Source of the DNA: a virus
Length of the DNA: 32,976 nt
Direction: 5' to 3' (one strand)
Virus record (IMG/VR): IMGVR_UViG_3300023116_000182
Coordinates: 1-32,976 of that record
A model generated the notes under the pieces. That model was not told the origin of the DNA. It did no database searches and was given only the letters and a program-made list of their open reading frames with translations. How positions within the stretch are numbered: the stretch's first letter is position 1; each line of letters opens with the position of its first letter. The position numbers and the translations under genes were made by a program. This document shows positions 2,300 through 5,844 of this stretch, in pieces.

Positions 2300-2436
2300 T
2301 GACTCAAGAGGATAGAGAGTTTGTTGACTTTCTTTTCAGCAAACTGGTCAAGCATGTTGATACTGATATGCTTGACCTTCACGACTCTGATAGTTGTGAC
2401 GACCACCTGATGTTTGCCCAACTCGAACTTTTCTGA
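2296..2436 (+). CDS. 46-residue acidic hypothetical protein
   Basis: A short frame, start ATGATG at 2296 (or 2299), that exactly fills the gap between two genes. It overlaps the upstream TGA and ends with a TGA whose last base is the A of the next ATG. The product starts MMTQEDREFVDFLFSKLVKH and ends DDHLMFAQLELF, with an acidic middle (DTDMLDLHDSDSCDD). The tight overlap on both sides and the sensible composition make it very likely real. Function unknown. Confidence 0.75.
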   Translation: MMTQEDREFVDFLFSKLVKHVDTDMLDLHDSDSCDDHLMFAQLELF

Positions 2437-3341
2437 TGCAAAACACTCACATCGAACACCCCGAAGATTCCATCCTGACTGGTGACCTTTCAGCACTGAA
2501 TTGGTTCGTCACTGATGGTAGGTTGAGTTTGAAGATTGACGGTGCTCCTGCTATTGTATGGGGACGCAATCCTGCGACTGGTAATTTCTTTGTTGGTACG
2601 AAGAGTGTATTCAACAAGGTAAAGATTAAAATCAATGAATCCCACCAGGACATTGATGATAATCATACTGGTGAAGTAGCAGAGATTCTGCATCTTTGCT
2701 TTGACTATTTGCCACGCTCTCCGTGGATTTTGCAGGGTGACTTTATCGGTGTTGGTGGTAGCGATGAGTACCAACCTAACACCATTACCTATGTCTTCCC
2801 CAGTGTGATTCGGGAGACTATCATTGTTGCTCCTCACACATATTATGATGCTGAGGATGATTTGCGTAATGCAGTTGGTCGCCCGTTGGATTTCAGTCTG
2901 ACTGACACTCATCATTGTAAGTTTATCAAACCACAGTCCTGGATTGCATCAGGTGCTGACCGATTTGAGGATGTGGTTAATGTTGTGATGTTTGCCAAGC
3001 AGATGGCAACAACGTGTGAGTTTGTTGATGATAAACAAGCGCGTGAAATGAAGAAGGTTTTCAACAGTTTCATCAAAACTGGTGCTGACCTGGACGAGGA
3101 GGCACTGACGCTCGCTTGCGGATGCGACCGCAACCTAATTCGATTGTGGAAACTTGTCAAGGCTATTAAGGACGACTGTTTGAAAGTTTGTCGCAATAAT
3201 GGACCTGATGCATATGTAGGATTCGACCGAATTGATGCTGAGGGTTATGTTTATTCTAATGAGTTTGGAATGTTCAAAATAGTTCGTCGGGAGGCGTTCA
3301 GTCGCGCCAACTTCAACAGCGGACGGTTTCAGACCAAATGA
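2436..3341 (+). CDS. Putative nucleotidyltransferase / RNA-DNA ligase-like protein
   Basis: 301 residues. LSLKIDGAPAIVWGRN (residues 30-45) matches motif I of the ATP-dependent ligase and capping-enzyme superfamily, KxDG, with K33 as candidate nucleotide-accepting lysine. WILQGDFIG (97-105) sits where motif III/IIIa-like acidic residues are expected. AEGYVYSNEFGMFKIV (268-283) resembles motifs IV and V, with EG and a final K281. The motif order and spacing fit the family; a C-terminal OB domain is not evident. From memory, related phage proteins may be filed under DUF6267, but I am not certain. Role is inferred: nucleic-acid nick or tRNA repair, or another nucleotidyl transfer. The ATG overlaps the upstream stop (TGATG). 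A module starts at its own stop codon. Confidence 0.7.
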   Translation: MQNTHIEHPEDSILTGDLSALNWFVTDGRLSLKIDGAPAIVWGRNPATGNFFVGTKSVFNKVKIKINESHQDIDDNHTGEVAEILHLCFDYLPRSPWILQGDFIGVGGSDEYQPNTITYVFPSVIRETIIVAPHTYYDAEDDLRNAVGRPLDFSLTDTHHCKFIKPQSWIASGADRFEDVVNVVMFAKQMATTCEFVDDKQAREMKKVFNSFIKTGADLDEEALTLACGCDRNLIRLWKLVKAIKDDCLKVCRNNGPDAYVGFDRIDAEGYVYSNEFGMFKIVRREAFSRANFNSGRFQTK

Positions 3342-5200: not shown

Positions 5201-5432
5201 AGTCGATGATTATGTAAGATGGAACAAAGATAAACACTCAGTAGAAGGATGGGTGTATTATAAGGACTCACAATACATCACAATCGAAACAGGAGTAAAG
5301 TGTAAGGATCCTGATAACATTACTGATTGTCCTATTCATCATAAGACTCATACTTTGGTATTGTGTTTCCCTGAGTATTATCATCAATTAACATATATCA
5401 AGTCACGCAATAATAAATATGATGAGAAGTAA
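5184..5432 (+). CDS. Conserved small cyanophage protein
   Basis: 82 residues, starting MPYTPEVDDYVRWNKDKHSV and continuing EGWVYYKDSQYITIETGVKC, KDPDNITDCPIHHKTHTLVL. The beta-rich opening resembles an SH3-like barrel, with the C-x(8)-C-x2-H-x3-H cluster around residues 40-55 (C40, C49, H52, H53, H56) that might bind metal. I recognise the protein as recurring in cyanophages, without assigned function. It overlaps the preceding gene by 17 bases. Confidence 0.8.
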   Translation: MPYTPEVDDYVRWNKDKHSVEGWVYYKDSQYITIETGVKCKDPDNITDCPIHHKTHTLVLCFPEYYHQLTYIKSRNNKYDEK

Positions 5433-5445
5433 TCCATCATAAACA

Positions 5446-5763
5446 GTGAAAACATTTCAAGAGTTTATTACTGAAGTAGAAGCATATAGTAATATAAGGA
5501 GTCTTGCACCTTATAGAGTAATGCCTCCATTGAAGACTAAAGATGGAAAACCTAATCCAGCACCCCAAAGGTTTTTAATTAACCCTAAGACAGGATTAGG
5601 TCCAACAGCACAGATAGCACCAATGAAGACTACTGTATTAGGACCTGATTTAAAGTCTTTACCTCATATAGATTGCCGAGGACCAGGACAGAAGTTGTGT
5701 AGTGTAATGAACCAAGCAAGATATAGTAGAGAGACAGGTAGAACACCACCTAAGATACCCTGA
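5446..5763 (+). CDS. Putative internal head protein with T4-type capsid targeting sequence
   Basis: 105 residues from GTG 5446. The first ten residues, MKTFQEFITE, differ at only two places from the capsid targeting sequence of the T4 internal proteins (MKTYQEFIAE), which directs proteins into the prohead and is removed by the gp21 protease after an (L/I)xE motif; here I-T-E sits at residues 8-10. The remaining ~95 residues are basic and rich in proline, glycine and lysine/arginine (PPLKTKDGKPNPAPQRF, then CRGPGQKLC), as expected for a protein packaged with DNA and injected. The start exactly at the targeting motif supports GTG initiation. A terminator follows at 5824. Packaging itself is inferred. 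Confidence 0.65.
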   Translation: MKTFQEFITEVEAYSNIRSLAPYRVMPPLKTKDGKPNPAPQRFLINPKTGLGPTAQIAPMKTTVLGPDLKSLPHIDCRGPGQKLCSVMNQARYSRETGRTPPKIP

Positions 5764-5823
5764 AAAAACAGCGCTTGCGCTTATGGGAAAAACTACGTTT
5801 TTACCAAGTTTAACCCTTATTTT

Positions 5824-5844
5824 ACCCCTTTTTAGGGGTTTTTT
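5824..5844 (+). terminator. Intrinsic terminator
   Basis: Stem ACCCCT (5824-5829) / AGGGGT (5834-5839) with a TTTT loop, followed by a run of T. It closes the left small-gene region after the internal-head-protein candidate. Confidence 0.75.

Follow-up and report, generated by a model that had tools for sequence, protein, structure and literature searches.

A predicted capsid-targeted internal head protein with exchangeable cassettes in a T4-like cyanomyovirus fragment

The window, i.e. the whole 32,976-nt stretch of DNA analysed here, encodes a gp8-type protein with 58% identity to gp8 of Synechococcus phage S-SRM01 and is thus a fragment of a T4-like cyanomyovirus. On its plus strand, an ORF at positions 5446–5763, reproduced at exactly these coordinates, encodes a candidate internal head protein of 105 aa. 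It begins with GTG, at a codon where the near relative L004 has ATG, and ends with TGA. The neighbouring genes are small and have no assigned function, and gp25/gp6/gp8-type baseplate genes lie downstream. Relatives are encoded at nine IMG/VR loci, and the dN/dS of the shared N-terminal module (0.03–0.49) indicates purifying selection; we therefore regard the ORF as a real gene. A clear Shine-Dalgarno sequence was not found at the ORF, which together with the GTG start counts against the interpretation developed below.

A T4-late-promoter-like motif, AATAAATA (5412–5419, plus strand), is located 34 bases before the start codon, within the end of the upstream gene. The motif is kept in relatives L001–L006, and also in L008 and L009 despite their different upstream sequence. 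TAAATA, the T4 late promoter core, lies at most 60 bases upstream of 71 of the 132 listed IMG/VR genes that share the N-terminal tag described below, as compared with 4.6% of background stretches. All seven [N]ATAAATA words in the window are on the plus strand (5412, 6149, 10650, 10968, 13156, 25150, and 26648), and two sit 26–31 bases before the gp25- and gp8-type genes; the minus strand has none. Downstream, an intrinsic-terminator-like hairpin (ACCCC-TTTTTA-GGGGT followed by a T-run) occupies positions 5824–5839 of the plus strand, with two overlapping sites versus 0.5 in shuffled sequences.

Codons 1–10 (5446–5475, plus strand) encode MKTFQEFITE. The sequence-only reading had likened this decapeptide to the tag of T4 internal proteins, and the likeness holds: it is identical at 8 of 10 positions (Y4F, A9T) to MKTYQEFIAE, with which both IpII and IpIII begin when the T4 genome itself is read. 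We assign it as a capsid-targeting sequence (CTS) from this resemblance and from its retention in the relatives, where K2, F7, I8, and E10 never vary and only F or Y occurs at position 4. In the T4 CTS, residues 4 and 7 determine targeting and residues 8 and 10 processing (PMC9026906); the residues kept in the relatives are exactly those that the T4 work ties to these functions, and the ORF product has the aromatics at positions 4 and 7, the I or L at position 8, and the E10 that define a CTS. A prohead-protease (gp21/S77) cleavage site is predicted between E10 and V11 (I-T-E/V; 5473–5478, plus strand) from the [IL]-x-E rule and the gp23 site and, judged from the sequence, matches the [IL]-x-E specificity of the phage's own prohead protease. 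The intact N-terminal peptide is TFQEFITEVEAYSNIR, and the neo-N-terminal peptide after the predicted cleavage would be VEAYSNIR. The P1' residue, Val instead of Ala or Ser, counts against our interpretation; at position 11, which the search pattern left free, Ala is found in 61 of 131 tagged proteins among the matches listed, as in T4, and Val is third commonest. Comparison with PHROGs yielded only sub-threshold matches at residues 1–14, to phrog_3966 (E 0.07) and to phrog_2667, 'internal head protein' (E 0.15). T4 IpIII matches both families and T4 IpII matches phrog_2667, in each case through the N-terminus only.

S77 (gp21-type) prohead proteases are encoded by S-SRM01, P-SSM2, S-PM2, Syn9, S-CREM2, S-SCSM1, and T4, and on the 55-kb contig carrying the close relative L006; none was found in the podoviruses P-SSP7 and Syn5. 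The 33-kb window fragment itself has no S77 gene, but the L006 contig and all T4-like cyanophages tested do. The gp23 cleavage site is FLTE/A in T4 and LLTE/A, FLAE/A, FLSE/A, or ILTE/T in cyanophages. This conservation suggests that the specificity of the protease is unchanged and that F-I-T-E/V of the tag would fit it.

Relatives of the ORF were absent from 50,697 phage records, and INPHARED megablast and tblastn searches gave no homologue; the family is thus known only from environmental contigs. Neither a profile search (A1) nor a search with the alternative-cassette protein added relatives to those retrieved with the single sequence. In DNA comparison with syntenic relatives, the tag stays constant while the middle and the C-terminus of the gene are exchanged between conserved flanks. 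The basic, proline-rich N-terminal mature module, aa 11–56 (5476–5613, plus strand), is kept in most relatives but replaced in L007. The C-terminal cassette, aa 57–105 (5614–5760, plus strand), is common to L003 and L007; in L004, DNA homology breaks at window position 5621 and resumes at 5820, with an unrelated 51-residue C-terminus between. L006 shares this C-terminus of L004, and its close relative L003 has that of the window. L007 keeps the tag (window positions 5448–5489) and the window's C-terminus around a different middle segment, L005 ends in a short tail, and the C-terminus of L008 is of a third type.

The part following E10 comprises 95 aa (10.4 kDa) with a pI of 10.2, a net charge of +10, and 15 prolines. 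Together with empty Pfam and PDB searches of the ORF product, these values bear out the earlier description of the remainder as basic, proline-rich, and of no known family. The mature part shows no sequence likeness to Ip1, Ip2, or Ip3, its PHROGs and PDB searches giving, respectively, matches confined to residues 1–14 and none. The AlphaFold2 model (mean pLDDT 63, pTM 0.27) is too poor for fold searching. At this low confidence it has one helix at the tag, another at aa 80–97 (5683–5736, plus strand; pLDDT about 80–87), the one mature segment modelled with confidence, and little other structure, so that the mature part is predicted to be mostly unstructured.

The sequence-only reading had proposed to look in related phages for other proteins with the same ten N-terminal residues. 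A back-translated pattern, M-K-T-F-x-[EQ]-F-I-x-E, retrieved at least 133 genes on at least 120 viral stretches in IMG/VR. Among the matches listed, 131 tagged proteins, compared from residue 13 onwards, form at least 64 single-linkage families, some of which may be distantly related to one another. Control patterns of like composition matched 8 (F7/I8 swap), 24 (E10Q), and 26 (E10D) stretches, as against at least 120 for the real motif. Of 120 tagged loci among the matches listed, 112 encode proteins closest to those of T4-like phages and in none do podovirus or siphovirus matches predominate; the podo- and siphoviruses tested gave no match to the tag motif. In five T4-like genomes, a relaxed motif occurs at 15 of ~18,000 start codons and at 19 of ~396,000 non-start codons (Fisher p about 4e-12). 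The background rate and the pattern controls led us to reject a chance motif, the F7/I8 swap an ordinary MK-rich start bias, and the absence from podo- and siphoviruses a general phage signal.

The domains behind the tag include cytidylyltransferase/NMNAT, kinase, GNAT, HNH, weak PARP/ART-like, DUF6267, and SAM lyase. Mutually unrelated tagged genes occur in tandem in L060 (four in a row), L126 (three), L066, L089, L100, and L128, and these runs look like cargo islands. Tagged proteins in L029, L039, L063, L110, L117, and L123 have YHGT-type ADP-ribosyltransferase-like starts, with a weak PARP/ART match in L117; from their sequences they are possible functional analogues of T4 Alt. In L024, L058, L078, L111, and L159:5428-6747 the tag is followed by a second conserved block, GL..DGHG.WY...GE..AKT..G.LKFF. 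This block lies ahead of cytidylyltransferase domains, and the S-CREM2 kinase starts in a similar way. The window's own DUF6267/phrog_455 protein (2436–3341) lacks the first ~22 profile residues and its relative L049:947-2098 starts with the tag MKTFAQFISE; proteins of this group thus occur both tagged and untagged. In T4, gp61.1 (L217:467-631, minus strand, 54 aa), annotated only as hypothetical, starts with MKTFKEFIKE, a full motif match, and may be an unrecognised internal protein.

To compare the tag with published virion proteomes, we used a looser pattern that had been fixed before it was applied to the S-CREM2 genome. It has exactly three matches there (124608+, 5081-, and 12846-), corresponding to the ORF154 cytidylyltransferase (L197:4608-5468, plus strand), the ORF6 SAM hydrolase (L191:3837-5081, minus strand), and the ORF14 APH/ChoK-like kinase (L191:10579-12846, minus strand). 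According to Table 3 of PMC10665884, these are the three 'regulatory proteins' of CsCl-purified S-CREM2 virions. All three matches were therefore virion-detected, versus 52 of the 221 S-CREM2 features overall (p about 0.012). When the 52 detected proteins are all examined at their N-termini, two more with tag-like starts emerge: ORF13 (MKDLHSFLTE), detected by a single peptide, and ORF136 (MQTFSMFFSE). A motif widened after the virion list had been seen gives 5 virion-detected proteins among 6 start-codon matches across the genome (p = 0.003) and 1 match in 94,993 other codons; the pre-set pattern is thus the clean test. ORF12 of S-CREM2 (L191:7704-10313), annotated as Cas9 and virion-detected, carries a tag-like LRFASFMAEA at residues 17–26, with a CTG codon at residue 17, suggesting from sequence an N-terminally extended or internal tag.

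The two tag matches in S-SCSM1 are the NMNAT (88819), which PMC9602691 reports as a virion protein, and a 106-aa protein (44215) annotated only as hypothetical, not virion. The latter counts against our interpretation and means that a tag does not guarantee detection. One P-SSM2 match (158143) is the cytidyltransferase T4-GC190; its orthologue in S-SM1 has been detected in virions (PMC3037559). The S-CREM2 paper cautions that any non-structural proteins in its CsCl preparations might have been carried over (PMC10665884), and the S-SCSM1 authors could not exclude carry-over either (PMC9602691). Carry-over becomes less likely for the NMNAT, kinase, and SAM hydrolase because these proteins have a common targeting tag, of which the available text of PMC10665884 makes no mention for its three 'regulatory' proteins. 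The proposal that MKTFQEFITE directs the protein to the capsid and is removed at an I-x-E site is therefore strongly supported by conservation, the IMG/VR pattern controls, the gp23 site, and the gp21-type protease, and above all by this published mass spectrometry of virions with other tagged cyanophage proteins.

Taken as a whole, the best explanation, that the ORF product is an internal head protein which a T4-like cyanomyovirus marks with a CTS, is probable. From its sequence features the product is very probably packaged and cleaved, and by analogy to T4 it is likely to be ejected with the DNA into the host. An ATAAATA promoter of its own would drive late expression of the gene, and the N-terminal decapeptide of the product would dock it onto the scaffold core of the prohead. 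A gp21-type protease would then cut after E10, leaving the basic, proline-rich 95-residue protein in the head to exit with the DNA into a cyanobacterium. There its most likely action would be to bind a host protein and so counter a defence early on or help to take over the host, with specificity set by the exchangeable C-terminal cassette.

The two roles suggested by the sequence-only reading, counter-defence and DNA condensation, are both plausible. Among possible roles we tentatively favour counter-defence, by analogy to T4. Ip1, Ip2, and Ip3 all inhibit Type IV restriction enzymes, each acting against a different variant (PMC12373910), which raises the prior for such a function, and a constant tag with cassettes swapped behind it has the look of an arms race. 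Weighing against counter-defence, the mature protein shows no recognisable kinship with Ip1–3 and, unlike the folded IPI*, is predicted to be largely unstructured. Neither Pfam, PDB, nor the AlphaFold2 model gives the mature part a fold or family that would point to a target, which counts against the best explanation as a whole. An injected factor that takes over the host instead of inhibiting a defence, comparable to T4 Alt and to what has been proposed for cyanophage NMNAT and kinases, would match the other tagged cargo (NMNAT/cytidylyltransferase, kinase, GNAT, HNH, ART-like, SAM lyase), mostly enzymes able to alter the host; it is unlikely here, as the ORF product has no enzymatic signature and only 95 mature residues, and an arms race would better explain the rapid exchange of cassettes. 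The basic (pI 10.2), proline-rich, and predicted mostly unstructured mature part would also suit a packaged core protein with a structural job only, i.e. IpIII-like help in head assembly or neutralisation of DNA charge, and no role after ejection. IpIII mutants do slow T4 head assembly (PMC9026906), yet IpIII itself is a restriction inhibitor (PMC12373910), and both the patchy distribution (nine IMG/VR loci, none of the phage records) and the exchange of middle and C-terminal cassettes would be odd for a structural part, making a purely structural role rather improbable. Finally, an unpackaged, cytoplasmic host-takeover protein whose decapeptide is a chance or functionless likeness would be at home in a region filled with small genes of unassigned function but is highly improbable given the low background of the motif in non-start codons, the fact that just the residues for targeting and processing survive cassette exchange, and the detection of other tagged proteins by virion mass spectrometry.

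The candidate internal head protein resembles T4 IpI, IpII, and IpIII, inhibitors of GmrSD-type restriction enzymes, in its N-terminal CTS, the I-x-E cleavage predicted here, its small basic mature form, and its patchy, variable distribution. In sequence, however, it is similar to them in the tag only; it is predicted to be largely unstructured, whereas IPI* is folded, its hosts would be cyanobacteria, and in its family the middle and the C-terminus are exchanged separately behind the tag. It shares with T4 Alt, a packaged ADP-ribosyltransferase, the status of an internal protein that is processed by gp21 and ejected (both predicted for our candidate), but Alt is a large enzyme and the candidate is small and lacks an enzymatic signature. 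Also comparable are the virion NMNAT/cytidylyltransferase, SAM hydrolase, and APH/ChoK kinase of S-CREM2, S-SCSM1, and S-SM1, which come from the same virus family and carry the same kind of tag (MKNFSSFLTE, MKDFDSFLEE, MKRFDAFLTE, and MKSFLQFLKE). These, in contrast, have known enzyme folds and were detected in virions, and their authors, in the parts of the papers available, drew no link to a tag. Ejection proteins of the SPN3US/phiKZ type are likewise described, in the abstract of PMC7411985, as head cargo matured by the prohead protease; they belong to a different phage lineage, and the likeness lies in this maturation, which is predicted for our candidate.

The protein itself is of a known kind; the surprise lies in the breadth of tag use by cyanophages, and its match to virion proteomes adds to the interest. 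In the literature searched, 'cyanophage' together with 'capsid targeting' occurred only in one T4 review. It is quite possible, at close to even chances, that the decapeptide serves T4-like cyanophages and related environmental viruses as a general, secretion-like address label that loads dozens of unrelated effectors into the head, with cassettes freely exchanged. The locus at 5446–5763 would then be one of many, its middle and C-terminal cassettes acting as specificity modules against varying host defences. The cyanophage virion papers leave undecided whether NMNAT, kinase, and SAM hydrolase are cargo or carry-over, and that precisely these proteins share the tag favours real cargo; if the address-label reading is true, these disputed proteins would be genuine injected cargo. 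The tag would provide a test, applicable to sequence alone, by which injected proteins could be recognised in the very abundant phages of marine and fresh waters that are uncultivated, and it yields a list of candidate injected effectors, many of them without assigned function.
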